Below are positions 484 through 54,911 of a stretch of 55,390 nt of DNA, one piece after another (positions within the stretch are counted from its first letter, which is position 1; each line of letters starts with the position of its first letter). The notes below the pieces were generated by a model. That model did no database searches and was not told the DNA's origin. It was given only the letters and a program-made list of their open reading frames with translations. Source of the stretch: Bolinopsis microptera (Eukaryota; Ctenophora; Tentaculata; Lobata; Bolinopsidae); contig NC_087084.1 in the NCBI RefSeq assembly GCF_026151205.1, forward strand, positions 15,969,337 through 16,024,726, given 5' to 3'. The position numbers and the translations under genes are program-made.

Positions 484-845
484 AGGTTACTTGATTGCTA
501 ACTAATCGCTATCTCAGTTGCTTCTGTGGGTGTCTAAGTAACCAGGTAACTAAGTAACCAGGTAACTAAGGTTACTTGATTGCTAACTAATCGCTATCTC
601 AGCTCAGTTGCTTCTGTGGGTGTCTAAGTAACCAGGTAACTAAGTGACCAGGTAACCAGGTAACTAAGTAACCAGGTAACTAAGGTTACTTGATTGCTAA
701 CTAATCGCTATCTCAGTTGCTTCTGTGGGTGTCTAAGTAACCAGGTAACTAAGTAACCAGGTAACCAGGTAACTAAGTAACCAGGTAACTAAGGTTACTT
801 GATTGCTAACTAATCGCTATCTCAGTTGCTTCTGTGGGTGTCGGT
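484..845 (+). repeat. Minisatellite carrying a 3' splice site and exon start
   Basis: Four copies of a 90-115 bp unit. Each contains a branch-point-like GCTAACTAAT, a CTATCTCAG acceptor and the first 17 bases of the exon that starts at 826, TTGCTTCTGTGGGTGTC. The upstream copies then run into taagtaaccaggtaac spacer repeats. Only the last copy continues into open coding sequence. The array looks like tandem duplication of an intron-exon junction. Confidence 0.8.
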
Positions 846-1462
846 GTTGGACTCTGTATCTCTGTGAAGGAGGACGCTGAGTGGTATTTCAACGAAGCGC
901 TCGGAAGGTCACTGTCTAGAGTTCTCCGAGAAGACGTGAGTATTAGTAGCAGTAATTAGTCAGTAATTAGTAATTAGTAATTAGTTATCGTTATGTTTAC
1001 TAGCTGTAGTGTTATGTAACCAGCAGTTGTAAAAATGTTAAACATGTTATAATAACTACAGTATATTTTCTGACCCTAAATTCCCTTTAAAATCTGCAGT
1101 TCCAACTGAATATCGACATGTTGAGTATCAACCTGAAGTCAGCTGAGCTGGTCACCATGCAGATCGGAGTTAGCGCTATCTTCGTCATCGCTGCCTGCTT
1201 CCTCATGCTCGTCGCCACTGTACTTGCAGGTAAATACTATACTTGCAGGTAAATACTATACTAGTTGCCATGGTAACTGCAGATTCGGGGTGTAAATGAA
1301 TCTTTTTACTAAATATGCTGACTTGGTGATATAGGTTGGTATTTCCGTGGCAGGGAAATGAAACGGTGCATAGAGGTGCTACTAATATTGTGAAATACAG
1401 CTTTTTCATTTTATTTAACATTTTTGTTATCTATTTCAGAACTGAGCAGGAACCTAAACTGA
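826..1462 (+). CDS. 3' part of a spliced gene; small protein with one hydrophobic segment
   Basis: Exons are inferred at 826-935, 1100-1229 and 1440-1462 (TGA stop). Junctions are acceptor CTCAG/TT, donor GAC/GTGAGT, acceptor CTGCAG/TTC, donor GCAG/GTAAAT and acceptor TTTCAG/AA, and phases agree at every join. The readable product has a Gly/Val-rich start (ASVGVGVGLCISVK), an amphipathic stretch (WYFNEALGRSLSRVL), a hydrophobic segment of about 20 residues (IGVSAIFVIAACFLMLVATV) and a short tail, AELSRNLN. This looks like the C-terminus of a membrane protein, but I do not recognise the family. The 5' end lies outside the window. AATAAA at 2226 could serve as its polyadenylation signal. Both the first acceptor and the second donor sit in tandem duplications. 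Moderately confident in the exons, not in the function. Confidence 0.6.
1221..1258 (+). repeat. 19-bp tandem duplication of exon end plus splice donor
   Basis: The sequence TACTTGCAG/GTAAATACTA is duplicated in tandem, so two identical donors lie 19 bp apart, at 1230 and 1249. Only the first keeps the reading frame into the exon at 1440. The second would add 19 nt and shift frame. Confidence 0.8.
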
Positions 1463-2650
1463 TAACTTCACTTCCGGGCTCAACACAAAGGGAAATATTC
1501 AGACTCAGCTATCATGGTTACCATGGTTACTCCTACTCCCAGCAATATACAAAACTGGACAGTAAAGCCTATGTATATTGTATAAACGTAATCAAATATT
1601 TACAATTTGCAAAATGGACTAAGAAATGCTAAGAAAATACGCACACCATATTTTCAATGCAAAGAGGTTCTGCTGACCCTGAAGTGTTTCCATGGTTACC
1701 ATTGTATTTTAGAAAATATTCACATCTATTTTATGTTTAAAATTATCTACGGACTGAACTTTTTCAGTTTTTCTTTTATCAATATCGTTGTGAAAGAAAA
1801 TTATATAAAAATGGAACTAAATAATTCTATGATTGTATCATTGGCTTTGGTAGTATGATTTAAGTTGATTAACTTCTTAAAATACAAAGTTCCTCTGTTA
1901 TTCTATATGTAGTTCTCCCTTCACTCTGAATGAAGCTCCTAATTACTGTTACCATGGTAGCAGAAGTTATTTTAATATTGTATTATTTTTATTTACACCA
2001 GATCTTGTTTGCTGACATTAAATTCCTATTTGTTTGCACACTAAGCTACATAACAGAATTATACGATGTAATTTGTGGTTTGTTACGTCAACAGTTTTCG
2101 TACTCAGTACTGAGTTAGTGAGTAATCAACTAAGACGACTGATCCATATGATTATATTATAAATATTGATGTATTTTCTCACAGATTAAAGAAACTTCGT
2201 GTTTTATTATGTTTTTTTTCCTTCAAATAAATCCCTAACCTAAGTGTCTGCATAATTCATGTTTATACTTTAGATTCACTTTGCAATCACTTACGAGAGG
2301 GGCGAGCAATAGTGAATAGACTAGATAAGGTAAGCGAGGTAATGCAAGCTAGCTAATCTAGATAAGGTAAGCTAGGTAATGCTAGCTAGCTTACAGCTAA
2401 GCTAGGTAATTGGTAACGCAGTCAGTCACTAAATTTTAAATGTATCGTTTGATTACACGGACATGGGCAAAAAACTTGGAACTGCATTTTCTGTTATCTT
2501 TCAAATTTGGTTCGTCCATCGTCGCTGATTTGGGACTCGCCCCACGACTCACGTGACATGCTTTTCTGGGGTGTGACCGCTTCGTATGTGGTCAGTGGTA
2601 TACATATTTGATATCGGAGCCGCTCGAGTGAAATGTCCATGGTAGTAAGG
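1463..2650. other. Probable 3' UTR, then intergenic sequence
   Basis: AT-rich sequence without supported coding exons. AATAAA at 2226 and ATTAAA near 2186 are candidate polyadenylation signals for the upstream gene. Around 2310-2420 there are two to three imperfect copies of a motif built on ctagataaggtaag and ggtaatgc. Confidence 0.4.
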
Positions 2651-2653
2651 CTG

Positions 2654-2746
2654 TTACCTGCACTGCCTGGGGACCCCAGGCCATAATCAATAATGTTCAT
2701 ATATGATATAATGAACGAATAGATATTCGGCGGTCATTCCGATTAG
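2654..2746 (+). repeat. Short dispersed element, degenerate copy
   Basis: It begins TTACCTG and has CTGGGGACCCCAGGC, a central self-complementary TTCATATATGATATAATGAA region and TTCGGCGGTCATTCCG. It matches the roughly 75-95 bp family seen at 3614, 5660, 6421, 26680 and 27076, but its 3' end has decayed. Confidence 0.5.
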
Positions 2747-2889
2747 ATTTCGACTGTTCTGTGTACACTGTAAATGCTTATACGTTTCTGTTTTATGAGT
2801 AAGCTGTGAAATTGTAAAAGTAAGCTATACCATATATTGTTTACGCGACGCCGATCTCGAATAAGACCTCTGACCTATATTAGGGGGTG

Positions 2890-3474
2890 CACGATAAAAA
2901 TAAACTTGCTCGGATTTAAAAAATTTTTGTACCACTGTTTTCTAGAGACTGTGAGAATTTTCACAATACCAAATTTGTCATACCTTTTTGGAAAGATCAG
3001 TGAGTTTCGCCTAGGTGCCATATTTGATGGTGCACGGCTTTTGGAGCAAAATTAGCTGTAAAAGTCGCGTAATTTGACCGAATTCGTCCAAATTTGACCA
3101 TTTTTGTCGTATTATTCGGATTTATCTTCAGTTCTTTAAATGAGATCATTCTGGAAATTGGCGACGACCTTCCAATAGGGCTTTCACAACTGTCCGAAAA
3201 ATTTGGTGGATATCGGAGTTGATATAGTGATCAAAATGGGGCAAAATACACTGCTTTTAGCTGTAACATAATTTCTGATGGTTGGATAAGCTTTAAATTT
3301 TTCGGACACTTTCCTTGTAAGTCTGTGAGTAAGCTTACCAATTTTTGTTGCAATTGAAGGTCGGGAAAGATACTCAATATCTATTTGTTTGAAGAAAATT
3401 GTGCTGGCCGAAATTAGCGCTAAAAAACCATCCTACAGTCGGCACGCGCGGCTCACTGTCGATTGCGCACTACC
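2890..3474 (+). repeat. Dispersed repeat, copy 1 of a direct pair
   Basis: About 585 bp from cacgataaaaataaacttg to gcgcactacc. It is similar along its length to 5476-6404, which carries extra insertions. Shared landmarks include gtgagtttcgcctaggt, gtaaaagtcgcgtaatttga, ttcacaactgtccgaaaaat and ctacagtcggcacgcgcggc. No coding potential was seen, so it is an unclassified, presumably non-autonomous, repeat. Confidence 0.7.
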
Positions 3475-5262: not shown

Positions 5263-5271
5263 GCTACGGTA

Positions 5272-12244: not shown

Positions 12245-15200
12245 ATGGATGAGGAGACAGATGATCCACCAGCTTTGATGGACGAATGCACTAAGGAACA
12301 TGTCTCCAAAATGTTTGAAGATAATGGAGACTCTACAGTAGATCAGCAGGAGGAGGTTATGGAATCTGAGGGGGGCGAAAAGGCAGAAAATCCATTGCTC
12401 TATCAAAGAGAAATCGAGCAGAGTGGGAACAAGACTTGTGGCAGAGTAGAGGAGAAGGCTGAGTTGAGCAGACGTGACATTACACTAAGGGACGCTACAC
12501 CACATAGACTAAATGCAGAGACTGAAATCATTAAGTCAGAGGAGGGGAAGGGACCATCTCCGATCAAAACATCTAAACCTTTTGATCTGTACCCTAGTGT
12601 GAGTTAGTACAGTAAAAATGGTTTTTAAAATGTTTGCTCATGAAAATTGAATACAGATTTATTTATCATTATCAACTGATAATTGAACTTCCTTGTGTTG
12701 AAACTTAACCCACAGACCCTTCAGTTGAGTGTGTCACAAACAGCATTTTCGGATACTTCTTCGGTACTTTCTCCAGCCAGCAGCAGCGAGAATTACAATG
12801 AACCTCTAAATCTCAGTACAGGTGAGCATTACAATGAACCTCTAAATCTCAGTACAGGTGAGTATTACAATGAACCTCTAAATCTCAGTACAGGTGAGAA
12901 TTACAACAAACCTCTAAATCTCAGTACAGGTGAGCATTACAATGAACCTCTAAATCTCAGTACAGGTCAGCATTACAATGAACCTCTAAATCTCAGTACA
13001 GGTGAGAATTACAATGAACCTCTAAATCTCAGTACAGGTGAGCATTACAATGAACCTCTAAATCTCAGTACAGGTGAGCATTACAATGAACCTCTAAATC
13101 TCAGTACAGGTGAGAATTACAATGAACCTCTAAATATCAGTACAGGTAAGCATTACAATGAACCTCTAAATCTCTTATCTCAGTACAGGTCAGCTTCACA
13201 ATGAACCTCTAAATCTCAGTACAGGTGAGAATTACAATGAACCTCTAAATCTCAGTACAGGTGAGAATTACAATGAACCTCTAAATCTCAGTACAGGTGA
13301 GAATTACAATGAACGTCTGAGACAGAATGAACGCCTGAGACAGAACTGGAAGAGGCCAGAAGAGATTTGGTCTGTGAATCGGTGCGAGGGATGGTGCAAC
13401 CTCAAAAAAGAGTTGGCATCGGTTTTGGTGACTGGAAAAAACCTTGGGAGAGGATGGATGAGCGGGAAAGAGAGAGGGAGGTTATGCTGAGAGTGAAGGA
13501 GAACATTGAAAGAGAGAGGGAGGTGCAAGTAGGTTCTCTGGAGATGCAGAGCAGGTGGGGTGAGTGGAGAGAGCTCGTAATGAAGACGGATTTGAGCTGG
13601 CATACACTTTTTAAGTATGGTGACTCACTTATTGGGTTCATGCTAAGTGCTGTGTACGGCACCCTCTTAACCCCCTCTATGGTTTCCAAGTGGAGTGAAG
13701 ATGAGGATGGGAAGTGCAAGTTATGTGAGGAGAGGATGGGCACCATTCAGCACATTTTGGCTGGGTGTAAGGTGGCCCTTAGTCAAGGAAGGTATAGATG
13801 GCGGCACGACAAGGTTCTGAAGCAGATCTCTGAACAGGTTGTCTTCCATTGTGATCGCCGAGTGAACACTTATAAGAACAAGGCCGGCAATGGAAGACAG
13901 TTCATTGATTTTGTTCCTGCTGGGAGGAGAAAAGCAGGTACAGACGACCGGAAGGAGAGTCGTGGTTTTGGGATCCTGAGTGGGTATCGGGATTGGATAG
14001 TGCTGTCAGACCTTGAGGGGCAGCTTAAGTTTCCAAGTGAGATTGTGGAAACACGGCTGAGGCCGGACCTTGTGATATTCTCAAGGTCGGCAAAGACAGT
14101 TATTTGGTGGGAGCTAACAGTACCATCTGAAGAGCGGATCGCTGAATCGCACGAGTACAAACTCGACCGATACAGTGGTCTGCAGGCTGAGATTCAGGCG
14201 AAAGGTTGGTGCTGTTCTAATGCCGCAGTCGAAGTTGGAGCTAGGGGAGTGGTTGCGCAGAGTTTGGAGAGAGCTGCGAGGAGGATTGGTTTTAGAGGAA
14301 GAGAGCTGAAGAAGCTGGTACGGGACAGTGGGAAAGAGGCAGCCCACTGTTCCAGATGGATTTACTTGTTATCGAGAAAGAGGGAGTGGGAGTTCAGGAA
14401 GGTTGGAGCTTGAGAGTTCACTATAACATCTAGAGGAACCATAAACGTTATCTCGTCGCCAATTGCGAGCTCTAACGGGTCTCCTCAAGTGACTCTCGGA
14501 TCAGATGGTGGTTCAAGGGTGGACTGCTGGGGCGCCTGACAGGAAACCGTATTGCGATTAAAGCCCCGAAACGGTGTCAGGTTGGTAACTGATGATTCTG
14601 ATCCATGCTCCTGTGAGTTTGCTGTTGTATCTCAACTTGCTAAACTGAGGCATCTCCGCATCTTGGGTGAATATGCGTACATCTTCATACTAAACCCAGG
14701 TGTGGCATGTGTCAGTGAATACGGGCGAGCGGATGCAATAGCGAAGGTGGTGTGGCAAGGCCTAAAAGACACAGTCAGATAGTTGTCAGCTCGCTGACTG
14801 TAAGGGAGAAGGTATATCCGTATTTCGCTGCTACTGATGCAGTCCTTGATCTGGCAATCAAGGCTTCTCTGTTTTTCGTCTAACTATGTACCGTTGGGCT
14901 TGTGGAACCCGTAAGGGGGACATACATAGGTTAGAATGGTTTTGTGCACCAAGAGGAGTGAGGGAATGAGGGTTGAAGAGAGAGAGCTTGAGAGTTGTTA
15001 GGGTGGTTAGGATCAGTAGGTGGAGTGTTTGGTTGGAGCTTTCTGTTTTTGCTGTATAGCATTTTAGTCACTCCGCAGTTTATTAACTGTGTCTCAACTC
15101 AGAAATAGAAACATTCTCCAAATTTGACCTCATCTGCCTCAATGAAACCAACTGTAAAATTTCTAATCTTCCTAATGGTCTGAACGACATTGAAATCGAA

Positions 15201-18200
15201 CAGTTTCACGAGCCCTTTATCAAAGAACCTGCACGTAAATCGCTCGCCATCCACAAGCCCTAAAAAATTCCTTGAAAAGTTTGAAAACGTGCTCAGGGGT
15301 CTTGATAGACACTCCAGAAAGCAGATAGTCTTCCTGGGTGATGCAAATATTGATCTTATAAAATACGATACCGACGCTTACAGCCAGGATCTTATAAGCT
15401 TACTAGAAAAATATGGGTTTGCCCAGACTGTCTCCAAGCCTACCAGGGTAACTGACCACAGTGCAACGCTTATTGATCACGTGTATACTAATCACGTGAC
15501 CAACGTTATTAGTTGTAATGTCGTGACGTTGGATATGTCAGATCATCTCGCGGTTAGCACGACCATTAGTTTAGGAGCCACACCTAGTTTGAACGAGCGA
15601 TTCCGTAGTCAACGTGTAAAGAACAACAACACTAGCTTGAAATTAGAGGCCCGTGTATTTAACGAAGCTAATCATGCTAAATTCAAAGAGCTTATTGTAA
15701 GTGAGACCTGGGATGATGCTACCTCCTCAACGTGCGCTGATGAACAATACAATTCCATCTATCAAACGTACATGAAACACTACAATACTGCATACCCCCT
15801 GAAGCGCGACAGTTCGAGAAGAAAATTCGAAAGAGCTGACCCAAAGCCTTGGATCTTACCCTGGCTTGAGGCGGCATGCAACCGCAGGAAGTTACTTTTT
15901 TTTGAAAAAACTATAAATCCATCACAAAAAAACTGCGACGCGTATGATAAAATGAAAAAGTTTTGTCACAAACATGTGAATCTAGCCAAAGAAAAGTACT
16001 ATAAAAAAATGTTTGACAAATACCAAAACTGCTCTAAAAATCAATGGAAAATTATCAATGGCCTCCTGAACCGTAACAGAAAAAAGTTCGGACACACCCG
16101 TCTGAAGGACGACGATGGCACGATTATAAGCTCCGATCTGGCAGTCGCTGAGAAATTTAACGGCTACTTCTCCGGTATTGCAGCCAGTATCAAGAGGCAA
16201 ATCGCTGCCCGTCGAACCTTTGACCCAGGTGGTTTCAAGCATTTTCTTAAGGCTTCGTGTAATAACTCGATGTTTCTTAAGCCTACATCACACGGTGAAG
16301 TCCAAAAGATAATATCAGGGCTTAAGAACAAGTCCACACTCGATTGTAAAATTGAGCCATTGAAAATTGCAAACAGCTGCGAAAACTTTACCAGGGCACT
16401 AGCTAATGTCATTAACTGTTCGTTCTCCAGTGGTACCTTCCCAAATGCTCTAAAAACTGCGAAAGTCGTTCCTATCCACAAAGGTGGTTCAAAATTGGAA
16501 GTAGCTAATTATAGGCCGATCTCTCTTTTGGGATCATTCTCGAAAATTTATGAGAAACTTATGCATGCTCGTGTTTTAGAATTTTTAGATAAGAACGATT
16601 CTCTTTTCGAAAATCAATACGGATTTCGGCCAGGAAGATCGTGCGAACATGCACTGCTCAATGCCCAAAATTGTATACTACACTCTCTGAAAAAGAAACA
16701 AATTTCCCTACTGCTCCTGCTCGATTACAGTAAAGCCTTTGACGTGCTTGATCATGAGACCTTGCTTAAGAAGCTTGACCATTATGGGATCAGGGGAGTC
16801 GCGCACGAATGGTTTAGATCTTACCTCTGTAATCGATCTCAATACGTAACTTTAAACGGAACTTGCTCTTCTAGCATGCCCATAGTTTACGGCGTACCTC
16901 AGGGTAGCATTTTAGGACCTCTCTTATTTGTAATTTATATAAACGACCTACCTGGAATTAGTGATTTTGCAAAGTTCATCCTTTATGCCGACGACGCAAA
17001 CATATTAATTAGTGGAACCACCCTAGAAGAAATACAATTAAAAGCTAATCAGCTAATTTCACGTCTTGTAGATTGGGTAGGTGTTAATGGGCTATCTTTA
17101 AATGTAAAAAAGACGTGTTACATGATTTTCACTAGAAAAAGAATCGACTTCAGCGGCTTTAATTTGTCCATTGACAACACTGTAATCGAACGTAAGACTG
17201 AAGCAAAATTTTTAGGAGTGATCCTAGACGAAAAGCTCACTTGGCAAAAACACATTACGGCCGTTAGAATAAAGATGGGTCGCTACCTCGGAGTTATGTA
17301 TAAGCTAAAGCACCTTCTACCTATCAAAGCCCGCCTAAACATTTTCCAAAGCCTTATCCAATCCCATCTAAATTTCTGTTCTTTAGTGTGGGGATTTGCC
17401 TCAAAATGTCACATTGAATCTCTGTTCACCAAGCAAAAGCAGGGAATTAGAGCTGTTATGTCAGGATATGTAAATTATAGATATAAAGACGGCAATCCCC
17501 CGGAGCACACAAAAAGTGCGTTTAGATTGCATAATATCCTAACAGTCCATAGCGTCATTGTAAAAAACGCTCTTATTCTACTACACAAAGTAAGGAACAT
17601 GCCAAGCCTTCTCCCTAAATCCATCAAAGAACTTTTCCCTCACGATATTCCCACCTATAATTCCACATACGAACATAACCTTTCTTGGTTCACAACTTAC
17701 AACGGCCCAACATTTAGAAATACTCTTTTCTTCAAAGGACCCATGCTCTCTATTACAAAACAAAGTAAGGATATAACTATTCCAAGTTCTACCTTTTCAA
17801 TTGAAATCTTTAAAAATTCAGCTAAGCGCGAACTCCTCAAGCTGCAAAGCTCAGGAGACGATGAAAATTGGCCAAATTTCTTACTTTATAGTATACCTGG
17901 GCTAAGAAAGTCTCAAAGAGAAGGGCGCTCGCAAATAGACTACAGCACCGAGTTAGTAAGCGACAACTCGTAAAGAAAGATCACTCGCGACAAATGACTA
18001 TGATCTTTTATCAACAACATATCATTTTAATTTCACTGCCATTATGCAATGCCGAATTTACATCTGCCGCGCAAAACTTTTTATCTATTATTATTAAATA
18101 GTAATTAGCATGTTTACAAATTGCGACTTCAACCAGTTTTGCAGACCGTTAGTTATATAGTACTTTTAGTAGGGCATTTATTTTAATATATTTATTTTAC

Positions 18201-21200
18201 ATTATTATATTTTAGTGTGACTTCTATAATTTCATTTATGTAATAACCATTGATCAATAAATTGCGGCACACGCCAACCTCCACCGTGGGGTTTCAAAAC
18301 AAAACGTCTAAATCTCAGTACAGGTGAGAATTACAATGAACCTCTAAATCTCAGTACAGGTGAGAATTACAATGAACCACTAAATCTCAGTACAGGTGAG
18401 AATTACAATGAACCTCTAAAACTCAGTACAGGTGAGCATTACAATGAACCTCTAAATCTCAGTACAGGTGAGAATTACAATGAACCTCTAAATCTCAGTA
18501 CAGGTGAGAATTACAATGAACCTCTAAATCTCAGTACAGGTGAGCATTACAATGAACCTCTAAATCTCAGTACAGGTCAGCATTACAATGAACCTCTAAA
18601 TCTCAGCACAGGTGAGAATTTTCATGATAACGATTACAGATATGGAGTTTACAGACAGTGAGACTGTATATATATATTGTAACCATGGTAACGATTACAG
18701 ATATGGAGTTTACTGACAGTGAGACTGAAGCTAGACATGCTGTATGTAACATCTCCTCACACAGTGGACTGAACATTAACAATAGTAATGTTACTTCACA
18801 CACCAAACCTAAAGTTCAGCTCCCTTCTTTCTCCCCACAGAGGTTTCATTCCTTGAATTTAATCTAGATTCTTTCAGCTAACATTTAGATCAAGAACAAT
18901 TTAGAATCAAGACATAAATGAGTTTTTTGTAGTTTGTTATTGTGAAAAACTACCAGGATAGTTGTTCCTGCGCTGATTTAGATTGAAGTTGTTTGGGAAC
19001 CCTTCTGCTTTCTCTTAAACATAGTACTATTATACTTTACTTATACTCTCTATATAAAATAATGCTCTTTTAAAAATCTGAGTATATTTTCAGGTTTCCG
19101 CAGTCAATGTCTCCATTACACGTATCGGCTGGTTACGCTTCACCAGCTACCAGTATCCATGGCAACCAATCCCCCACACGTTCATTTCTCCCGGACGGTT
19201 TATCGGAGAACATCTCAGCTGTCAGAGTTAAAGTTAGATCCCGTCACGCTAGTTTCTCGGTAAGTTAGATCCCGTCACGCTAGTTTCTCGGTAAGTTAGA
19301 TCCCGTCACGCTAGTTTCTCGGTGAGTTAGATCCCGTCACGCTAGTTTCTCGGTGAGTTAGATCCCGTCACGCTAGTTTCTCGGTAAGTTAGATCCCGTC
19401 ACGCTAGTTTCTCGGTAAGTTAGATCCCGTCACGCTAGTTTCTCGGTAAGTTAGATCCCGTCACGCTAGTTTCTCGGTAATTTAGATCCCGTCACGCTAG
19501 TTTCTCGGTAAGTTAGATCCCGTCACGCTAGTTTCTCGGTAAGTTAGATCCCGTCACGCTAGTTTCTCGGTAATTTAGATCCCGTCACGCTAGTTTCTCG
19601 GTAATTTAGATCCCGTCACGCTAGTTTCTCGGTAAGTTAGATCCCGTCACGCTAGTTTCTCGGTGAGTTAGACCCCGTCACGCTAGTTTCTCGGTAAGTT
19701 AGATCCCGTCACGCTAGTTTCTCGGTGAGTTAGATCCCGTCACGCTAGTTTCTCGGTAAGTTAGATCCCGTCACGCTAGTTTCTCGGTGAGTAAGATTCC
19801 GTCACGCTAGTTTCTCGGTGAGTTAGATCCCGTCACGCTAGTTTCTCGGTAATTTAGATCCCGTCACGCTAGTTTTTCGGTGAGTTAGATTCCGTCACGC
19901 TAGTTTCTCGGTGAGTTAGATCCCGTCACGCTAGTTTCTCGGTGAGTTAGATCCCGTCACGCTAGTTTCTCGGTAAGTTAGATCCCGTCACGCTAGTTTC
20001 TCGGTGAGTTAGATCCCGTCACGCTAGTTTCTCGTTAATTTAGATCCCGTCACGCTAGTTTCTCGGTGAGTTAGATCCCGTCACGCTAGTTTCTCGGTGA
20101 GTTAGATCCCGTCACGCTAGTTTCTCGGTGAGTTAGATCCCGTCACGCTAGTTTCTCGGTAAGTTAGACCCCGTCCCGCTAGTTTCTCGGTGAGTTAGAT
20201 CCCGTCACGCTAGTTTCTCGGTAATTTAGATCCCGTCACGCTAGTTTCTCGGTGAGTTAGATTCCGTCCCGCTAGTTTCTCGGTGAGTTAGATCCCGTCA
20301 CGCTAGTTTCTCGGTAATTTAGATCCCGTCACGCTAGTTTCTCGGTAATTTAGATCCCGTCACGCTAGTTTCTCGGTAATTTAGATCCCGTCACGCTAGT
20401 TTCTCGGTAAGTTGATCCCGTCACGCTAGTTTCTCGGTAATTTAGATCCCGTCACGCTAGTTTCTCGGTAATTTAGATCCCGTCACGCTAGTTTCTCGGT
20501 GAGTTAGATCCCGTCACGCTAGTTTCTCGGTAAGTTAGATCCCGTCAGTCGTAAGGCTTGAAATCTTCGTAAAACTACATCATTAGAGCCTGTAAAAAGC
20601 ACTCTATCAAGTAAAATTCATATATAATCATATTATATTATATATAATCATCACAGTTTTTTTTTTTTTTTTTATCTAGACACTTATTTTACTTCGGTGT
20701 ATTCCAACAGCCACAATGTTACACAAGTGCAACCAGCCAATTACAGGAAGCCGAAGGATCTTTTTGGCCAGTGACGGTTAAGGTAGTGTGTACCATACTT
20801 TCTTCGTCCGAGACTTTGCTGCAATGTGCAGCTCCTCATTTAACCCTCACACCCGATTTCTCGAGTATTCGGCTGAGTAGACCGGGGGGCTGCATAGACC
20901 ACTCATGATCCTTAGCTGAACGTCGACGACGCTAACCCCACGACCAGGCAGTCAGTGGGTTTCGAACTCGCAACCTAACGATTGTAAGACAGGCGTTCTA
21001 ACCAACTGCGCTACCTGGCCGTTGATTAACTCAAAAGTAAAAATTGTAACAAAGGCAAAATTTAATCAGTCAAAATTCGTAGCATGTAAGTAATTATGGA
21101 TGGGGTACAACTCCACTCGGAAAATTATAGTATTTGATAAAGATATACAATATGACATGGCTTGATGGCTTCGTGTGGAAATACAAAACCATGTGATATA

Positions 21201-24125: not shown

Positions 24126-26679
24126 GACCACGTTACCATAACAACCACTGCACGTGGTATGACGTCACATTACGCGACTTGAGATTATGACTTGTTAGAC
24201 CGGACCTCTGTCTCAATTTCGATAGTGATTATTGGTTTCGTGAAGGTTAAATTCAGTCAAGTCAAGTTGATACTCAGAAAAAATTTGTGTAGAACTGAGC
24301 ACCCACCAGTTTGATAACTTGAGACATATTGAAACTGGTAAAAATAAGTCACAACAAAGAAGGACTCGCTCAAAGTGGGATGCGTGCACTCTGCAGATAT
24401 AATTACGTTCAATTTTATTTTATTTTTTGCAATTTCAGCCGCGGCAGATATGTAACTTTATCACGAGTAGTAGTCATCTGTACATAGAATCAAGAAATTT
24501 GATTCTCTACATAAAATCTAGACATTTTGACTGTTTTTGGGTAAGTTTTTTGGTTAATCGATCTCACGAGTCAAAGCTAACTTTTTCGACAAATTTATTT
24601 GAGAACATTATTCCAACTAATAGCACAAGTTACCTGGCTACCATTACTTATACATCGTCACTACTATAAGTGTTATCTAGTATTACTACTAGTTACCATA
24701 GTTACACTACTAGTTACCATAGTTACACTACTAGTTACCATAGTTACACTACTAGTTACCATAGTTACACTACTAGTTACCATAGTAACTTATCGTGATT
24801 ACTATAAGTGTTATCTATTGTATTTAACAATGTTTTGAAAGGGATGTAGTCTAGCTATTTAGTTAGTGTCTATGTTACGACCTTAGGTTTTTGCATCAGT
24901 TAGTGTTTATGTCACGGCTTAAGGTTTTTGTTTACACATTGTGGTATAAATTGGCAGATTAGATAAAATTACTTTTCGAGGAGGTGGAGGCTAGGGCTTG
25001 GTATGGAAGTTTAAATAAGTTCTGCTCCAAAATGGGGCGATGGACAAAAGTTACCGACGTGGTAATTTGAATGGTCCGAGATAACCTGTTAGTAACATGA
25101 TTACTTTACAATTTAGCTTACTTAGGTTTATTAGTCACTAAATTAGCTATAGGCATAGCTACATTAATTCAGTTAGGTAATAGGTATCATTTGCATTGCG
25201 CATATTACGAAAGCCAAATTAGGGGCAGTTTGGAAATACTAATTTCTACACAAAAGTCTAAAATGGATTACGGAAAAAGGAGGAGTTCTCGCTATTATAG
25301 ACATAGTTGCTAAAGCTACAAGTTGCTACTGTAGTTACTTTAAGTTACTGTAATTTTTATTGCAACATGCAGTAATTATCTCTAGTTACAGTAGTTACTC
25401 CTTTATAATACAACATGTTACATGTTGTTCCTGTAGTTACTTAGTTACTAATAGCCTATTTAAGTTGTTTTAATAAGGAACCTGGTTATCATACCTCGTT
25501 CACATTTAGTAACTATATACTAGCACTATAATAATTGCCACCGGTATGTACTGTGATTACCTCGTTTCTTTAGTTTCTATAATTTATAAAATTAGTGATA
25601 AATGTAGTTAATTTCAGTTACCAATATGGTTCCCATATTTACTGTAGTCCTCTTGTGACAATTGTTACCTAGGTTAGAGGCAGGCTAAGCTTTTTTCTTT
25701 CATCTAATTGTTGTGCACACTATTATTGTGCAACTATCTCTAGTTACAGTAGTTACTCCTTTATAATACACACTAATTGTCTATTTTGCGGAATATTTAT
25801 AAACTGTTTTGACTTAACTTATTGGAAAATATTTATTGTGTTTCACCGTGATATTGTTGTTTTAATAATGAAAAGGACGAATTTCTATTGCCCATTATAA
25901 ATTTGTAACAAATATTGGTCGATGCATAACATAAAATTTCACCCTACCCAAAGACCAATATTTCTTTTAAACTTTTATAGGGTTAAAACGCTCCCCTAGC
26001 GAGATATTGGCGAAAAACTGTCTCGATCACGTGATATGACCATATACGGAAGTTAGTCTAATTTCTTGTTAGGCCCGGTTAGGGTTTCAGCATATGCTTT
26101 TGTTAGAGATTGGGTTAGGGTTTTGTCATACGTTGTATAACCCGCCGAGCACGAGTGCGCGGCTCCCCCTGTATCGCGTCAGGACCTAGTGAAACGACCG
26201 TGGGGGGTCAAGACGTGATACAAGTTAGGGTTAAGGTTGGGATCAGATTAGAGGGCTAGGATTTCGAATAGTCATTCTGGGCCACCAAGAGAAAGTGTTT
26301 AAAAAGTCACGTGACAGTCGAGTGTACAGTGATTAATCATCATCCTAATCATGGCTGTTGTAGCGCGATGCGCTATTGGCCTCGCCAAGCTGCGAATAAT
26401 TAAGTAAAACAAAATTAATCAATTAATCATGGCTGCCCCCCTGGACTTTTTTCCCTAGAAAACACCTTTCTCTACGTTTCATGCTACCGGCCCTGACCAT
26501 GCTATCATGATGAGCCGAAATCATTGTTATATATATTATGATATCCAGCCAAGCACCTTTTACTATTATAGCCGGATATTCGATCAATTTCTAAATTTTA
26601 TCACTATTATGAAAGTGTGAAAAAGAATGAAATTGAGTCTAGTGGTAAAAAAGAAAACTTTGATTACGTAATCAACGAC
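24126..26679. other. Gene-free, with small arrays
   Basis: Holds a 21-bp array (24685-24790, unit actactagttaccatagtta-c, about 5 copies) flanked by a copied ctataagtgttatcta. A direct repeat of ctctagttacagtagttact occurs at about 25380 and 25736. The block 25996-26100 (agcgagatattggcgaaaaa) matches 6530-6630. Several TTAGGGTT words occur at 26080-26250. No exon supported. Confidence 0.5.
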
Positions 26680-44515: not shown

Positions 44516-47500
44516 GTACGTTTGAGTTGAATTGGGCAGAGGCAGCCCAAAACTGGTACAAGGCTAAGAAGAGACACTCCAGAATTGAAGATGCATCACA
44601 CCTTCTACACAAAGGTATGTTTAGATGCATCACACCTTCTACACAAAGGTATGTTTATTAAGATGCATCACACCTTCTACACAAAGGTATGTGTAAGATG
44701 CATCACACCTTCTACACAAAGGTATGTTTATCACACCTTCTACACAAAGGTATGCATCACACCTTCTACACAAAGGTATGTTTAGATGCATCACACCTTC
44801 TACACAAAGGTATGTTTATTAAGATGCATCACACCTTCTACACAAAGGTATGTTTATTAAGATGCATCACACCTTCTGCACAAAGGTGTGTTTATTTTTC
44901 AAGTTCAAAGAGAGCTACAAATGGGATTAATGTAAGTTTGTCTAGTTCAGGACTGGTACGATGAGATGATTAGCAGAATTGAATTTTGGGTAATTTTTCT
45001 TTTACCGATACCATTTCAATGAGTTTTGGATTCTGCAACTTAAAGGCGGTGATTCGTATAGTTTTAAAAATGTATTACCTTAAAAGCCATATTTCTGAAT
45101 TCAATCCCGACCAAAGTTCTCGGCAAGTCTAATTTATTTTTGCTTAGTTTGTTAGTCAGCTGCTTTTTTACAGCAAAGTAAATAACCCAGGTATACAAGC
45201 AGCTTTTCCGAAACTGGAGGAATTAAAAAGAGAACGGACGGGTCACCAGTGTGTCAGAAGAAGTTTTAAGATCAGCGACGATATTTGCAGCACTGTCCAG
45301 GCTATCGTGGGTCAGTACACATGCAATAGGTGGACCAAACCATGATCCAATAGAATCTGCAATGTATTATTTTCAATAAGTTGCTATAAGTTGCGTATAG
45401 CTTGAAATTTCAAATACCTAATTAACTATCTGTTTTACTTAACTATTATATAAACTAATTCTAATAACTAGAAAGCAAATAATCAATCTTCTTCAGTTGG
45501 TACAAGTAACAAGGAAAGGAAGAGATGTAAATGCAACAACTCCCAGTCTCTTCCGGTTAGCCTCATGAGATTAAATATTATGCTCTCTAAATAAACTACT
45601 CCCTCTCCCTCTCCCTCTCCCTCTCCCTCTCCCTCTCCCTCTCCCTCTCCCTCTCCCTCTCCCTCTCCCTCTCCCTCTCCCTCTCCCTCTCCCTCTCCCT
45701 CTCCCTCTCCCTCTCCCTCTCCCTCTCCCTCTCCCTCTCCCTCTCCCTCTCCCTCTCCCTCTCCCTCTCCCTCTCCCTCTCCCTCTCCCTCTCCCTCTCC
45801 CTCTCCCTCTCCCTCTCCCTCTCCCTCTCCCTCTCCCTCTCCCTCTCCCTCTCCCTCTCCCTCTCCCTCTCCCTCTCCCTCTCCCTCTCCCTCTCCCTCT
45901 CCCTCTCCCTCTCCCTCTCCCTCTCCCTCTCCCTCTCCCTCTCCCTCTCCCTCTCCCTCTCCCTCTCCCTCTCCCTCTCCCTCTCCCTCTCCCTCTCCCT
46001 CTCCCTCTCCCTCTCCCTCTCCCTCTCCCTCTCCCTCTCCCTCTCCCTCTCCCTCTCCCTCTCCCTCTCCCTCTCCCTCTCCCTCTCCCTCTCCCTCTCC
46101 CTCTCCCTCTCCCTCTCCCTCTCCCTCTCCCTCTCCCTCCCTTTTTCCTCTCTCTCCTTCTCTTTCTTTTTCTTTCTCTCATTCTCCCTCTACATCTATA
46201 ATTTAAGAAATTTCAGACGATGTGGCCTCTGTCAGAGCACCTATTAGGATTTGATTGTGAGTTTCATATGGAGCAAATGATCGCTCACGCTGTTGTTTTT
46301 ATCTTGATTTAAGCAGAGTGTGCAAATAAGAATTAAAATTGATAAATTTGATGCAATTTATAACAAAAAATAGTAATTTATTGTGAATTACCTTAGTTCC
46401 CAAAAATTTGTGTGCCATTATATTGAGCACAATTTATTTGAGCCCGAAAAATTTGGGCAGAAAATTTGAACTCATTTGGGCGACCGAAAATTTGGGCACA
46501 AATTCTTCGAAAAATGAACGATTTTCCACTAAAATGTCAGTTAGATATTTGCCTTAGTTCATTATTATTCCTTATTATTCCAGTCATTTTGCTTTCAATA
46601 TTAAGCATGTAGGTAGTAGTCTGAGTTGTTTCACATTATGAAATTTACGATCTGCCCAGTAACTACTAAAAAATACAGTGATGATGGCACACCAGGCACA
46701 GTACAAAATGATAGATATACAATAGTGATATTTAGTCTCTCAATCAGATAGTTTAGTCTACTTACACTCAGCATATCTTATCATACCCCTTTCACATACA
46801 ATTATCATTATGACGCCTCAACAGATGGTCGAAAGGTTTGGAAGAAAATTAGAAGGTTTACATCATGATCTATCAAACTAAGCGGCACATACGCTTAGCT
46901 TTGGGGGAAACAAAGGTGTACATAATTGTGTGTAGCGAACTACTGTAAACCCGGACCAAAGGTCTTGAAGTCTAATTCCAGTTATTTCTATTCATTTAAA
47001 ATATAAGCCTTTTTATAGATTAGAAAACTAAAATTTCAAATATTATTTCACTTGGATATGAAGAAAAAGCCATCTTTCTATAGATTTCAGGGCCACAGGC
47101 CAAATGCCAAAAGTTTGGTTAGCAAAAAATTTAGCAGACGGAAAAGATTTATGCAATTAATTTGGTCTGCAAAAAATTTGGGCGAGAGGCCCGCTCAAAT
47201 TTTTGGTCGCCCAAATTTTTGGTCGCCCAAATTTTTGGGAATTAAGGTAATCAGGACCTAATTGAGTATATCATTTAGTTTATCACAATGATAGGTTGGA
47301 TCGTTATGGTAGTATGATATTTTAGTATAGTTACACTTCAGGGGGACCTTAAGTCAGTTTGCAAACGTTTGGGCTTATTTCTCAGTCACTGAATGCCCGA
47401 TTGAGTTAATTGAGTTTGTGTAATTTGTAAAATCAGATGACTCAGACATAAAGCATAATGGGTTTGGTGCTAAATCAGATGACTCAGACATAAAGCATAA

Positions 47501-50500
47501 TGGGTTTGGTGCTAAATCAGATGACTCAGACATAAAGCATAATGGGTTTGGTGCTAAATCAGATGACTCAGACATAAAGCATAATGGGTTTGGTGCTAAA
47601 TCAGATGACTCAGACATAAAGCATAATGGGTTTGGTGCTAAATAACATGATCCCCCCCCCCCCCCCGCTAAATCACTCTACACTGGAACGTGAAACCAAC
47701 TTGATGTATTTCACATGATAGTCAGGTGATTGGGTTGCCATTAGATCGCACTATGGGAATCGTGCAGGGAGCCTATTTAGGGTGTCATGTCACACTGATA
47801 CTATTAAATGATCGGTGATATGCTACATCTAATAACCTATTAGTTGCCAGGTTACAGTTGCCTGGTTACAGTTGCCTGGTTACCTGGTTACCAGGCTACA
47901 TCTAATAACCTATTGCAGTTGCCTGGTTACAGTTGCCTGATTACAGTATGCTACATCTAATAACCTATTAGTTGCCTGGTTACAGTTGCCTGGTTACAGT
48001 TGCCTGGTTACCTATTGCATTATATAAAAATTAGGTTTCTCGCCTCCAAAATAGTGAAATAGTTACAATATCTGCAAAGTTACACGTGTCAGACAATAAT
48101 GTCATATGTATATGCCTAATCGTTTGTACACCAACTTATGAGCCCCTATATAGTGCATAGTGCATAGTGCATAGTGCATAGTGCATAGTGCATAGTGCAT
48201 AGTACATAGTGCATAGTGCATATTGTATAGTGTATAGTGTAAAGTGTATAGTATATAGTGTAAAGTGTATAGTGTAAAGTGTAAAGTGCATAGTGCATAG
48301 TATAGTGTATAGTGCATATAGTATAGTGTATAGTATATATATAAAATACATATAATATAATATATATTATTAGTATAGATAATAGATATTTTAAATTTGT
48401 TTCACTAAAATTTGTTTCACTATATATATATATTTATGTCTTATCTAAGACCCAACCCTCCGTTTGCTGAAAACCTGCTACCTCTCGAGTGGGAGTACGC
48501 AGACGACGCAGACTTCACAGACGAGCATAAAAAGAATTTGGAGTCCATGTTACCAATATGCAAGGAGATATTGGAGGAGTGGAATCTTTTTGTCAACGAA
48601 TCAAAAACAGAGTTCACACATATCTATCTGGCCGAGAAGAACGAAGTTGATGACAAAGGAGAGCCACTTCGAAGAAGAGAGCCCTGGAGATCATCTATCT
48701 CACTTGGTTCCAAATTGTGCAGCAACGAGGACATAAAAAGACGATGTATTCTGGCAAATCTTGCTTTCCAAACCTACAAGAAAGTTTGGGAACAAGGTAA
48801 ACGCATACCTCTTAAGACCAGACTTAAGATCTACGAAGCCCAGGTGGTCTCCGTCTTAATGTATAATTGTAGCTGCTGGGCTGCTTCAAAGCAGCTACTG
48901 AGTAAACTGGATATTTGCCACAGAAAGCATCTGATGCAAATCATCAGAATGACTTACCCTAATATAATAAAAAACGACACCCTTTACAAGAGATGTGAAG
49001 TGGTTCCACTCAGTGAGCGTGTTGCATGTGCACGATGGAGGATGCTCGGACATGTCCTTCGCAGTGATAACAACTCACCTGCACAGCTTGCATTACACTT
49101 TGCAGTAGAGAGTCAGAGTACCAAAAAGGGTAGAGTAGGCAGACACCAGTCGAACTTGCTTAAGACTATTAAATTTGATTTAGGTAGTAGGAACATTCCA
49201 TTTGTAAATACAGACGATTTGTACAATTTAAGACTTTTAGCCTCTGATAGAGCGGGATGGAAGAAGTTGTTATAGCTTGTGTATCAGTATTTCTTTTTTT
49301 CTGGCTACTTATCAGATCTTTAAGATGTTCATTTATGTTCTATTTTTGATTTGAATAAAGTTATATAATAATAATAATTTATATAATAATATATATAATA
49401 TATTTCAAACAAAGAAACACTCAAATTTGCGGGCAAAGGATCCGTTTCATGATAAGTAGAAAACAATACCATTAAATCCTCAGTGCCAAATAAGAATAAT
49501 GAATTTCAAAGATATGATATGTTGCTCCTTTATAAAATACTTTTTATCGATTTAAATTATGGTCAAGTGACAGGATATAAAACATTTTCAAAATTTCCAA
49601 TAACTTCTCGTCCAAATTTTAGTATTGTCTGTTGAGTAGGATATCTTTTGTTTTAAAAAGATATATCTTTACTAATAATCTCAATAAATCTGTGTGTGTA
49701 TGTATGTATGACGTATGTGTGTGTGCGGGAAATTTCCAAGCGACTTAATTAAAAAAACGGTAAGAGTTACGGGACTGGTTTGTTAGGTATAGTGCCGACA
49801 AAACTATAACGAAGCCAATAAGAAAATTTTTATTTAAATCGGCCGGTGGTAAGTGGTTCAATTGATGGTTTTTGTACCACAAATGTGACATAAAATTGCT
49901 AACTTTTTTCGCTCTTCGCTCTCTCTTCCATTACTGCATATTATGTAGCGTTGGTACATGAATCATAATTAGGTTAGCCGCAAGTAATACAATCAATCAT
50001 GATCAGATCGTCATCTCCTCAGTATGTTTGGTAAAGCCTAATGAACCTCATCAATACACGCTAACGCCTTACTCTTGATCAGATTGGGTAACGAGATCAC
50101 TGATTGAGTGCAGAGATCACTGACTGAGTGCTCGGATCACGTATCCGATGAATTTTGAAATGGTCATAACTCAACCAAATTTTGAACAATGAACTTGAAA
50201 CTTTGGGAAAGGTTTTAAATTATCAAGCCAAATGTGTGCAAAAAATTTGGAGTTCTTAGCTCAAAGCGTTCTCATTTTATGAAGAAAATAGTGAAAAAGA
50301 GAGAGTGTCACGCCACGCCCACTGTAATTGGGCGTGGCTTACAAAACTTTCAGGAAATCTAAGTTTGACCCATATCTATAATCTCTGAAATTTTGGTGCA
50401 ATTTGAAGACGAATTACGTTTGTTATTAAGAGGGTGCGTGTGGGAAGTCACTTTTGGGCCACCCTGTACTATAAGCTTATTAGGGATGGAGGGCACTGAT

Positions 50501-53500
50501 TGCGGTCTGTTTGGACTGTAGAGAGAGTTCATACTTTCATACGACAATATTATGCGCGTTTTAAAATATAATAGGCGGGTGTATACTTTTGCATTTCAAC
50601 TGCGATAGTGAAGTCCCGGCCGTAGGCACGGGTTACACTAGTATATATTATATATAATTCGAACAATCGAAACAAATCAAATTGGCGGGCAAACGACCCG
50701 TTTCATAATATGTATAAAACAATACCAATGGGCACTGATGATTGGTATTGTTTTATACATATCATGAAACGGAATACGGATAGTTTGCTCGCCAATTTGA
50801 TTTGTTTCAATTGTTCGAATTATAATGCTCCTGCTTAACAGCAGTCGAGCACTCTCTTTGGGAAACCAAGCAACAACTATTTATTAATATACCATTTATA
50901 CATACCATACTTAACTTGATGGTTCTGTCTGATATGAATTCAACATTCTTTTGATTCTAATTAATGTTGATGTTAACTGATTAGATTCACGAGCACGATT
51001 TAAACGAATTAAATTATATTTGTTGTATGAAAGCATTAATATGACATAACATTGAACATTTATATTCTAAAATTGGCCAGTTTTATCCTAGCAATTGTTT
51101 AACTGAGTCAATATGTCTTTAGTCCCAAATATCTTTCAGCACCGATCAAAGTGACACCTGTGAGAGATAGTACCTATCAGGATTTAGCCCGCGCTGCAGT
51201 AAGTTTATAGATTAGTACCTTTACTTATTTTGGGTCCTCTAAGTTGATAGATTAGTAACTTTACTTACTTTGGGTCCTCTAAGTTGATAGATTAGTAACT
51301 TTCCTTACTTTGGGTCCTCTAAGTTGATAGATTAGTACCTTTACTTACTTTGGGTCCTCTAAGTTGATAGATTAGTAACTTTACTTACTTTGGGTCCTCT
51401 AAGTTGATAGATTAGTAACTTTACTTACTTTGGGTCCTCTAAGTTGATAGATTAGTACCTTTACTTACTTTAGGTCCTCTAAGTTGATAGATTAGTAACT
51501 TAACTTACTTTGGGTCCTCTAAGTTGATAGATTAGTACCTTTACTTACTTTGGGTCCTCTAAGTTGATAGATTAGTAACTTTACTTACTTTGGGTCCTCT
51601 AAGTTGATAGATTAGTAACTTTACTTACTTTGGGTCCTCTAAGTTGGATGATCCTCTGTACTATCTTCTTTACTATCAAATACTAATCTGCAGTTTTGTG
51701 CACCAATCAATATATACAGTTGCCTGGTTACAGTTGCCCGGTTACAGTTGCCTGGTTACAGTTGCCTGGTTACAGTTGCCTAGTTACAGTTGCTAGGTTA
51801 CAGTTGCCTGGTTACAGTTGCCAGGTTACAGTTGCCAGGTTACAGTTGCCTGGTTACAGTTGCCTGGTTACAGTTGCCTGGTTACAGTTGCCTGGTTACA
51901 GTTGCCTGGTTACAGTTGCCTGGTTACAGTTGCCTGGTTAAAGTTGCCTGGTTACAGTTGCCTGGTTACAGTTGCCTGGTTAGAGTTGCCTGGTTAGAGT
52001 TGCCTGGTTACAGTTGCCTGGTTACAGTTGCCTGGTTACAGTTGCCTGGTTACAGTTGCCTGGTTACAGTTGCCCGGTTACAGTTGCCTGGTTACAGTTG
52101 CTTGGTTACAGTTGCCTGGTTACAGTTGCCTGGTTACAGTTGCCTGGTTACAGTTGCCTGTTTACAGTTGCCTTGTTGCAGTTAGATACAATTATAACAA
52201 TATATAATATACATAACAATTACTATCGAAGTAGTTACTAGTAACCTAGTGATGCTTATCAGGAGTAGTTACTAGTAACCTAGTAGTTACTAGTAACCTA
52301 GTTATTAGTAACCTAGTGATGCTTATCAGGAAAGTCCCAGTAACGATGAGATGATAAAGTGGGTAATGAAGAGTGGACAGAACCAGTTACTGCTAATCTA
52401 CCAGTGGGCAGTAAAACTCCCTGACTTCTGCGCTCTTGCTGAGGGGGATCAAAAGGTATATCAGTCCCGATTAAACTCCCTCAATGTCATGAAAACCATC
52501 AGATACCATTAGAACCAATCGCCGGCCATTGGTTCTATTGGTTTCTGATGGTTTTCGGTCAGAGTTCTTGACCCAAAAAATAAAAACGGATAAAATAATC
52601 CAAAATTTCAAAAATGGTCTACAAGCACATTTGTCAGAAAACGGCAAATATTTTTAAAATCTTGACAATCTATTTAAACACACTCTATTGTATCATGTAT
52701 AGTTGGGGTCTGCAAAAATCGGAAATGTGGAGCTAAAAATGTGACCCCCTCTCCCTCCCCAGAACTATTATTTTTCTAAAAGTATTTATTGTTTGTACTC
52801 TACCTGTTATATAATTCACTGTAGGTTTTGCTAAAAAGTGTGGTGAACGAGCTGTTGACTGTAAAACTAGCGTACAGAAGTGTTGACTTAACACAGCAGC
52901 TGCGGCTTGGAACTGGCAAGATAATCGACGTGGGACTGATCAGAGAACACTTTACAAAGTCCCTTGCTACCAGGTAAATACCTGGTTACAGTTGCCTGGT
53001 TACAGTTGCCTGGTTACAGTTGCCTGGTTACAGTTGCCTGGTTACAGTTGCCTGGTTACAGTTGCCTGGTTACAGTTGCCTGGTTACAGTTGCCTGGTTA
53101 CAGTTGCCTGGTTACAGTTGCCTGGTTACAGTTGCCTGGTTACAGTTGCCTGGTTACAGTTGCCTGGTTACAGTTGCCTGGTTACAGTTGCTAGGTTACA
53201 GTTGCCTGGTTACAGTTGCCTGGTTACAGTTGCCTGGTTACAGTTGCCTGGTTACAGTTGCCTGGTTACAGTTGCCTGGTTACAGTTGCCTGGTTACAGT
53301 TGCCTGGTTACAGTTGCCTGGTTACAGTTGCCTGGTTACAGTTGCCTGGTTACGGTTGCCTGGTTACAGTTGCCTGGTTACAGTTGCTAGGTTACAGTTG
53401 CTAGGTTACAGTTTCCTGGTTACAGTTGCCTGGTTACAGTTGCCTGGTTACAGTTGCTTGGTTACAGTTGCCTGGTTACAGTTGCCTGGTTACAATTTAC

Positions 53501-54911
53501 TAATTACAGCGTAGTGAAGAACATCGTGAGCACATTGAACGAGTTACGTCTGAGCGATTTGGAATTTGCTTTGATGCAGCAGATAATTCTCTTCAATCCA
53601 CGTAGGTATACTACACACTACACACTACACACTACACACTACACACTACACACTACACACTACACACTACACACTACACACTACACACTACACACTACAC
53701 ACTACACACTACACACTACACACTACACACTACACACTACACACTACACACTACACACTACACACTACACACTACACACTACACACTACACACTACACAC
53801 TACACACTACACACTACACACTACACACTACACACTACACACTACACACTACACACTACACACTACACACTACACACTACACACTACACACTACACACTA
53901 CACACTACACACTACACACTACACACTACACACTACACACTGGTACTAAAAGAATACTGTACTGTTATCATGACAATAAATATTACTGTAGTCATAATTT
54001 GCCGGTGTGGTTGTAACCTAGTAACAGATACGTTCCCTTACAAGAGACGAAATACGACTCCTCGATTACTAACCCAAGTTACCTCAAAAATGTATCCACT
54101 TATGTTATTAATATGGCCATTGTGATTTTTACCCACAAATAAAAATAATGTGTCGTAAACACCGAGACTCTATCATGTGTAATTCGACTCTGCAGTTTTT
54201 AATGTGTATTAGATGATGTATCAAGTAATCAGATTCAGTAATATAATACAGGTCATGTACATTTATATTATATTTTCGTAACATGGCCCAAAAGAAAAAC
54301 AACGCAACTGAAGGTTAGAGGTACCTTGTATTGTATTTCCACAGAACAAGTCACTTATCAGACCAGTACATATTAGAGTCCCAACCGGTTGCCAAGCAGT
54401 AGTTACAGGTTGCCAAGCAGTGGTTACAGGTTGCCAAGCAGTGGTTACAGGTTGCCAAGCAGTGGTTACAGGTTGCCAAGCAGTGGTTACAGGTTGCCAA
54501 GCAGTAGTTACAGGTTGCCAAGCAGTGGTTACAGGCTGCCAAGCAGTGGTTACAGGTTGCCAAGCAGTGGTTACAGGTTGCCAAGCAGTGGTTACAGGTT
54601 GCCAAGCAGTAGTTACAGTTGAAAAACAGGGTCGAGGGTCCCGTTTTATGAAGTCGAGAGACCAATAGCTACAAAAAGAGCATTCGGAAGCTTAGCTATG
54701 GGTAATTTTTTTTGGGCTTCATAGGTATGGCAGCCATAGGGACACCAGAGAGTTTCTACTACTACTACTACTACATATGGACACCAGAGAGTTTCTACTA
54801 CTACTACTACTACATAGGGACACCAGAGGGTTTCTATTACTACTACTACTACATAGGGACACCAGAGAGTTTCTACTACTACTACTACTACATAGGGACA
54901 CCAGAGAGTTT

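Follow-up and report, generated by a model that had tools for sequence, protein, structure and literature searches.

Minisatellite-like tandem arrays at exon-intron borders in a three-gene locus and in kinesin genes of the ctenophore Bolinopsis microptera

The locus studied here is a window of 55,390 nucleotides on contig NC_087084.1 of the ctenophore Bolinopsis microptera (C13:15969337-16024726), in which short tandem arrays lie at exon-intron borders of three genes, all on the + strand. Between and within these genes there are retrotransposon-like stretches, judged by eye and from reading alone. Gene 3 encodes a nuclear-receptor ligand-binding domain (PF00104, 1.2e-14), its best solved structures being RXR (2.9e-13). 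When the genome was searched with PF00104 (like all genome-wide searches reported here, over the 264.65-Mb assembly of 232 contigs), no match was obtained, gene 3 included, probably because the exons of gene 3 are short. Genes 1 and 2 presented no Pfam match above the cut-off, and a PF03347 match of gene 2 that fell below it was taken as chance. The part of the window from 10605 to 55382 recurs at C13:16,050,176-16,090,498, about 65-70 kb downstream, where genes 2 and 3 are found again with intact exons and in segments that are 74-100% identical. Either a recent duplication has given rise to this second copy as a paralogue, or it represents the alternative haplotype assembled in tandem.

The six exons of gene 2, joined by the first donors and the last acceptors of all arrays, gave a single open frame, 504 codons long, with phases that join correctly. 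Exon 1 (12245-12598) runs from the ATG to CCTAGT|GTGAGT and is backed by its open frame and by silent-biased differences between the copies of the locus, while the final 34 bases of exon 2 (12716-12821) and the final 29 bases of exon 4 (19094-19259) are the first units of a 36-bp and a 31-bp array, respectively. Exon 3 (18701-18842) has an acceptor region that is present twice here and was called as an array of three 47-bp units in the other copy of the locus. Exon 5 (22888-23040) was placed by the frame and the second-copy comparison, and exon 6 (23532-24125), which includes the stop codon, showed 13 silent and no replacement differences. Over the gene, 28 silent and 3 replacement differences were counted (351 silent and 1155 replacement sites), not counting the six bases by which exon 1 differs in length. 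In gene 3, the end of the exon at 44516-44614 is the first unit of an array that starts at 44588. The exons at 45191-45310, 45497-45555, 51140-51198 and 54345-54387 were placed by comparison with the second copy, and those at 52330-52455, 52825-52973 and 53510-53605 carry the ligand-binding domain, as judged from PF00104 and the RXR structures. The gene 3 exons differed from their second copies by 5 silent and no replacement changes. The borders placed for the exons in both genes are thus well supported, since the frame is uninterrupted and the differences are silent-biased, except at the 36-bp array, where inner donors would also keep the frame. The phases of the exons that end at 45555 and start at 51140 do not join, so a further exon probably lies between them. 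The 3′ end of the last exon and the donor at 54388 are uncertain, and this exon may simply stop at a TAG within the first unit of a 21-bp array. The alignment with the second copy does not reach gene 1, whose exons (borders 826 and 1230) are candidate exons without independent support.

A first-pass annotation had placed arrays at about 13 of about 30 exon boundaries. Read letter by letter, all eight of its donors were G|T and all five of its acceptors followed AG. Tandem Repeats Finder (TRF) at score 50 confirmed an array for 10 of the 13 (boundary inside the array or at most 10 bp away) and did not do so for the remainder: one array ends 13 bp before 52330 and another 16 bp before 53510, and the two copies at 18701 are visible by reading and were not called. 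The annotation had further claimed that the unit itself contains the junction in at least seven cases, to which the TRF result came close, with 6 of 31 boundaries straddled by at least 6 bp on each side (826, 1230, 12821, 19259, 23532 and 44614, where 12821, 19259 and 44614 are last exon bases; donors are otherwise named here by the first intron base, as 12822, 19260 and 44615). At the donors the unit consists of the exon end plus GT and measures 36 bp (12822), 31 bp (19260), about 35 bp (44615) and 19 bp (1230), and at the acceptors 23532 and 826 it consists of AG plus the exon start.

The arrays, all read on the + strand, varied widely in length. In gene 1, the array over acceptor 826 (484-842) has units of about 85-109 bp with 8-, 16- and 24-bp sub-repeats (TRF), and the one over donor 1230 (1217-1262) holds 2.4 copies of a 19-bp unit made of the exon end TTGCAG and GTAAAT. 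The 36-bp array of gene 2 (unit ACAG|GTGAG, in frame with the exon) has 14.6 copies at 12788-13318 and resumes with 8.8 copies at 18303-18620; a stretch that reads as an insertion like a long interspersed nuclear element (13319-18302) splits it, and the empty site is found in the second copy near C13:16,052,388. The 31-bp array (19231-20547; TCTCG|GTAAGT) reaches 42.5 copies, and three 55-bp units (23402-23567; CCCCCAG|GATAAAG) cover the acceptor of exon 6. In gene 3, nine units of 33-38 bp (44588-44894; CACAAAG|GTATGTTT) cover donor 44615. At 51199, 52974 and 53606 the exon ends at most 8 bp before the array starts, and the unit does not include the border. These are an 11.2-copy array of 40 bp (51200-51646); a 14-bp array of 36.7 copies (52981-53494), which begins 8 bp after one exon, ends 16 bp before the next and fills 96% of the intron; and a 7-bp array of 47 copies (53610-53941), which starts 5 bp after its exon. 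The intron after 51198 also holds 33.5 copies of the 14-bp unit TACAGTTGCCTGGT (51715-52183), so that 89% of it is array, and 11 copies of a 21-bp unit stand at the end of the last exon (54387-54618). The TACAGTTGCCTGGT unit forms three arrays of the same orientation within 6 kb (47842-48011, 51715-52183 and 52981-53494). We considered a mobile, dispersing unit and rejected it: exact double units, among the 100 of 107 matches listed, occurred only at this locus and its second copy, in one array on C12 and in one match on C6. Away from the junctions, a CTCCCT hexanucleotide array at 45599-46139 presented 90 copies with 100% matches (TRF), against 76.5 in the second copy.

To yield the conserved protein, splicing must use the outermost sites (first donor, last acceptor) at every array except the in-frame 36-bp one. 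At 19260, choosing any of the next four donors led to a stop at residue 259. At 12822, 36 bp equal 12 codons and the frame stayed open over all five donors tried; with each unit of this array (12716-13318 with its exon) the protein would gain a repeat of 12 residues such as ENYNEPLNLSTG, in which PLNLS resembles the CtBP-binding motif. This bears on the possibility that selection retains the donor arrays, with spare donors protecting splicing or tuning isoforms and donor choice at 12822 setting the number of ENYNEPLNLSTG repeats. Among ungapped units, 117 of 118 of the 31-bp kind and 32 of 32 of the 36-bp kind retained the GT, as such selection would have it, but many non-GT positions were equally invariant, which is what homogenisation predicts, and GT conservation was consequently dropped as a sign of selection. 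Within the 32 ungapped 36-bp units, non-consensus bases fell 21, 4 and 4 times on codon positions 1, 2 and 3 (hand-summed). With no excess at third positions, the inner copies do not behave like coding sequence in their evolution, and a coding role of the array was discarded. The ten unit lengths tallied over straddled junctions (19, 36, 31, about 35, 55, 53, 33, 38, 53 and 21 bp; the array at 826, of mixed period, was omitted) included three multiples of three, as expected by chance. Selection for repeats that carry working splice sites, which the first-pass annotation had named among possible genome-wide processes, left no sign of coding constraint in the 36-bp units, and most units would not keep the frame in any case. 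Retention between the copies of the locus also fits it at first sight: all seven array-bearing donors of genes 2 and 3 in the aligned region have an array in the second copy as well. However, arrays with aligned flanks that lie off the junctions were also mostly kept (9 of 13, hand count), and therefore the donor arrays are not clearly better kept. We regard selection of this kind as very unlikely.

The number of units differed between the copies at most of these donors. Compared with this window, the second copy presented 11.6 instead of 14.6 plus 8.8 units of the 36-bp array and 78.5 instead of 42.5 of the 31-bp array in gene 2; in gene 3 it presented 6 instead of 9 at 44588, 11.1 instead of 11.2 (40-bp), 52.7 instead of 36.7 (14-bp), 202 instead of 47 (7-bp) and 196 instead of 11 (21-bp). 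Acceptor 23532 has three units here and a single one in the second copy, and acceptor 18701 has two copies here against the called 47-bp array there. A collapse or expansion of repeats during assembly, or two haplotypes laid in tandem, could in principle generate such a picture, and a second copy only about 65 kb away with segments up to 100% identical makes tandem haplotypes possible. Against an artefact, the units differ among themselves and the same structure occurs in kinesin genes on other contigs (see below); moreover, if the copies were alleles, their differences in copy number would be allelic and the conclusion of instability would be unaffected. An assembly origin is thus extremely improbable.

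The two copies also bear on the proposal, made in the first-pass annotation, that tandem duplication is giving birth to introns or multiplying the splice sites in use at this locus. In the Rogers model, as cited in the excerpt of PMC3087553 consulted, introns are gained by tandem duplication of exon sequence that contains AGGT, and the potato RdRp gene is reported as a case of intron gain by tandem genomic duplication (PMC4974935). The raw material is similar here: the tandem duplicates hold exon sequence and splice signals (exon plus AG|GT), and in two introns arrays account for 89% and 96% of the length. The outcome differs, in that the duplication sits at an existing border, its copies lie inside an existing intron and the outer sites bound that intron. 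The intron before 23532 is found in both copies of the locus and is independent of the array, since the second copy has it with a single unit. None of the 14 aligned exons showed an intron in one copy that was absent from the other, and within this locus and its second copy no new intron bounded by duplicated AGGT was found. The frame requires only the outermost sites, so neither part of the proposal was supported, and birth of introns by this route is a highly improbable account of the arrays.

We then compared the position of the arrays with chance. Arrays with 10 bp of slack occupy 24.6% of the window outside the transposons (intervals set by eye). Under circular shifts, 10 of 31 boundaries lay near arrays against 7.6 expected (p 0.24), 6 were straddled against 6.7 expected (p 0.66), and the exons of the ligand-binding domain had 2 of 7 boundaries near arrays against 1.7 expected. 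The statement that splice junctions in general are seeded with arrays was therefore not supported: 13 of 30 is about what array coverage predicts, the shift test ruled it out as a significant figure, acceptors were without excess and the excess at donors was modest. Set against shifted positions, in the manner of the check that the annotation had proposed for the whole assembly, the arrays of the window gave a mixed answer: nearness to junctions was not above chance, and the starts of arrays were in excess at donors. The latter came from a registration test that counted array starts between -55 and +10 of a donor and array ends at acceptors. Such a start was present at 7 of the 13 donors of genes 2 and 3 against 0.93 expected (P 5e-5), a P value that is not a fair test as the locus was chosen for being striking. 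The acceptors of the same genes gave 1 of 13 in register with an array edge against 0.93 expected.

For a sample chosen regardless of arrays we turned to kinesin (PF00225, 109 genome matches) and myosin (PF00063, 73 matches) genes. Within 24 kinesin and 3 myosin stretches, 54 and 18 introns were placed by frame and splice-site strength, skipping exon pairs with profile gaps beyond the limit. The 72 introns were reduced to 67 by dropping three of L022 and one of L025, which are near-identical copies, and one of L045 that was poorly placed (1693). Protein kinase matches, mostly long uninterrupted exons, were left out; two clusters of them, at C11:1438036-1461999 and 1759438-1805885, are arranged in tandem on one strand with frames of 368-589 residues. 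At TRF score 40, 12% of the 150 kb surrounding the kinesin genes was array, as was 21% of the introns placed in them, and where about a fifth of the sampled intron sequence is array, chance will often put one at a splice site. At TRF scores of 50, 70 and 100, array starts were registered at 8, 6 and 6 donors of the 67 introns against 3.37, 2.00 and 1.37 expected (P 0.022, 0.016 and 0.003), a 2.4- to 4.4-fold excess over intron interiors. Acceptors showed no excess, with 1 observed against 4.12, 2.49 and 1.87 expected. Arrays that truly straddle the junction were found at 4 donors (2.9, 1.6 or 1.1 expected, depending on the score) and 1 acceptor of 68 introns.

The kinesin cases resembled those of the window. 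In L037, 52 copies of a 33-bp unit cover the donor inside the motif AINTSLSEL|GNVMMALQ; the other straddled donors carry 53-bp units in 8 copies (L041) and 2 copies (L023) and a 38-bp unit in 2 copies (L035), and in L035 a 21-bp array of 24 copies ends over an acceptor. In L031, 21.7 copies of a 13-bp unit start exactly at the GT, and the outermost site restores YRDSKLTRLLQDSLG|GNS. At all seven array-bearing junctions examined, the kinesin motor motif was restored by the outermost site. Units made of exon end plus GT or of AG plus exon start are therefore wider than one locus, occurring in unrelated kinesin genes on other chromosomes, as the first-pass annotation had anticipated. Two further observations concern the same genes. 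The 21-bp unit ACTACTAGTTACCATAGTTAC (up to rotation), arrayed in the window at 24685-24786 after the stop codon of gene 2, is also arrayed just after the kinesin donor of L031 (C12:14832901-14837200, - strand) at 2189-2811. A difference in length between the kinesin copies L021 and L022 was first considered as growth of an array and proved to be a transposon-like insertion whose two ends carry inverted tandem arrays, located at about 4740-5670 of L021 and absent from the near-identical L022 (about 4425).

The excess of array starts raises the possibility that donors are true hot spots of tandem duplication, through transcription-linked breaks, R-loops or slippage at AGGTAAGT. The 7 of 13 starts in the window (0.93 expected) and the 6-8 of 67 in the sample (1.4-3.4 expected) favour it. 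However, when donors were compared with pseudo-donors, that is, intronic GT scoring at least 1.5, the rates at the three scores were 0.119, 0.090 and 0.090 against 0.054, 0.048 and 0.042, a 1.9-2.2-fold difference that was not significant (Fisher 0.075, 0.18 and 0.13). Donor strength in arrays of intron interiors gave no signal in the kinesin and myosin sample either (0 strong in sense versus 1 in antisense, of 28); in the window the figures were 3 versus 0 of 7, one of the three being the split part of the 36-bp array.

Counts of a donor motif over the whole genome pointed the same way. The genome contains 2462 copies of the motif CAGGTAAGT and 1212 of its reverse, and pairs 21-51 bp apart numbered 493 for the motif versus 2 for the reverse. 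This control value is unusually low, because the reversed one-letter neighbours gave 156 pairs in 7027 single copies. The three neighbours themselves (CAGGVAAGT), in which the donor is destroyed, gave 94 pairs in 4606 single copies. When loci on C1-C9 were counted by eye, CAGGTAAGT had at least 12 among the first 100 of its 493 matches listed and the neighbours had 13 among all 94, which amounts to about 1.7-fold per single copy (2462 versus 4606). We therefore rejected 493 versus 2 as evidence of a huge donor enrichment, as a few long arrays inflate it and the neighbour controls together with locus counting bring it to about two-fold. The acceptor-like TTTTCAGG formed 480 pairs in 21684 single copies, and its reverse 120 in 8934, so that there was little effect at acceptors. 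A donor signal is thus present genome-wide and is modest, arrays at splice sites are only mildly commoner than chance, and hot spots at donors are an unlikely cause of the arrays.

Altogether, these results are probably best explained by frequent random tandem duplication that is tolerated at donors as long as the outermost site is used, in a manner similar to the mirages of amphioxus. Short tandem duplications would be frequent events nearly everywhere but in exons. Where the duplicated stretch happens to include an exon end and its donor, or more rarely an acceptor, the outermost copy would remain the exon border and the rest would become intron, and such duplications would survive only where they leave the mRNA unharmed. 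The arrays would then expand, contract and homogenise like any minisatellite, persisting as long as splicing keeps to the first donor or the last acceptor. We infer that the inner donors are ignored in RNA. The predominance of donors over acceptors could be plausibly attributed to the first transcribed donor being committed first, while an extra acceptor upstream of the true one would be met and used first. This argument rests on the order of synthesis in splicing.

Several points weigh against this explanation. A neutral origin does not predict an excess of array starts at donors over intron interiors (6 versus 1.4 at score 100). The 36-bp array remains open and in frame over the five donors tried, and the codon-position counts that speak against its being coding come from homogenised units that are not independent. 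In addition, the 18 myosin introns presented no clear junction-straddling array, all clear cases being kinesins. A stronger version, in which the 5′ splice site is a preferred cradle of arrays, with about one donor in ten abutted or straddled and some followed by tens of equally strong copies under a strict first-donor rule, and with donor choice at the 36-bp array possibly setting the number of 12-residue repeats, is conceivable, and we hold it as doubtful.

In form, the ctenophore arrays are close to a structure described in lancelets. According to the excerpts of PMC3087553 and PMC3902484 consulted, amphioxus mirages are minisatellite-like repeats over exon-intron boundaries, found in Adh3, the globins BflGb6 and BflGb9, troponin C and PGBD5; many of them carry AG/GT, and their length is unstable without disturbing splicing, as seen by RT-PCR (reverse transcription polymerase chain reaction). 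For Adh3, the same excerpts report somatic instability and units of 10-72 bp. The ctenophore arrays share units that span the border and carry the splice signal (6 of 31 boundaries in the window and 5 in 68 kinesin and myosin introns), duplication of either border and a copy number that is unstable, here between the two copies of the locus. Undisturbed splicing, seen by RT-PCR in amphioxus, may apply here too: the conserved frames agree with the outermost sites. They differ in their host, in the presence of several arrays per gene with a measured donor bias, and in size, with up to 52-78 straddling copies and 196 beside an exon end, compared with 3 and 6 in the BflGb6 haplotypes of those excerpts; their units are shorter than the globin ones given there and mostly within the 10-72 bp of Adh3. 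With ordinary intronic minisatellites they have in common the turnover of copy number, the homogeneous units and the many arrays off the junctions, and they differ from these in that some of them include the exon end and that more arrays than expected start at donors. We provisionally class the ctenophore arrays as mirages, in a phylum new to this structure and with higher copy numbers. Among the titles and beginnings of abstracts of the open-access literature, no such arrays were described in ctenophores and the structure was described for lancelets only; the text of the Mnemiopsis genome paper contains neither "intron" nor "minisatellite".

Dozens of near-identical donors beside one true donor constitute a natural experiment on how the spliceosome chooses a 5′ splice site. 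If donor arrays are common in ctenophores, a structure known from lancelets would also be present in a lineage at the base of the animals, and it would be relevant to the annotation of gene structure, to changes in intron length and to the model of intron gain by tandem duplication.

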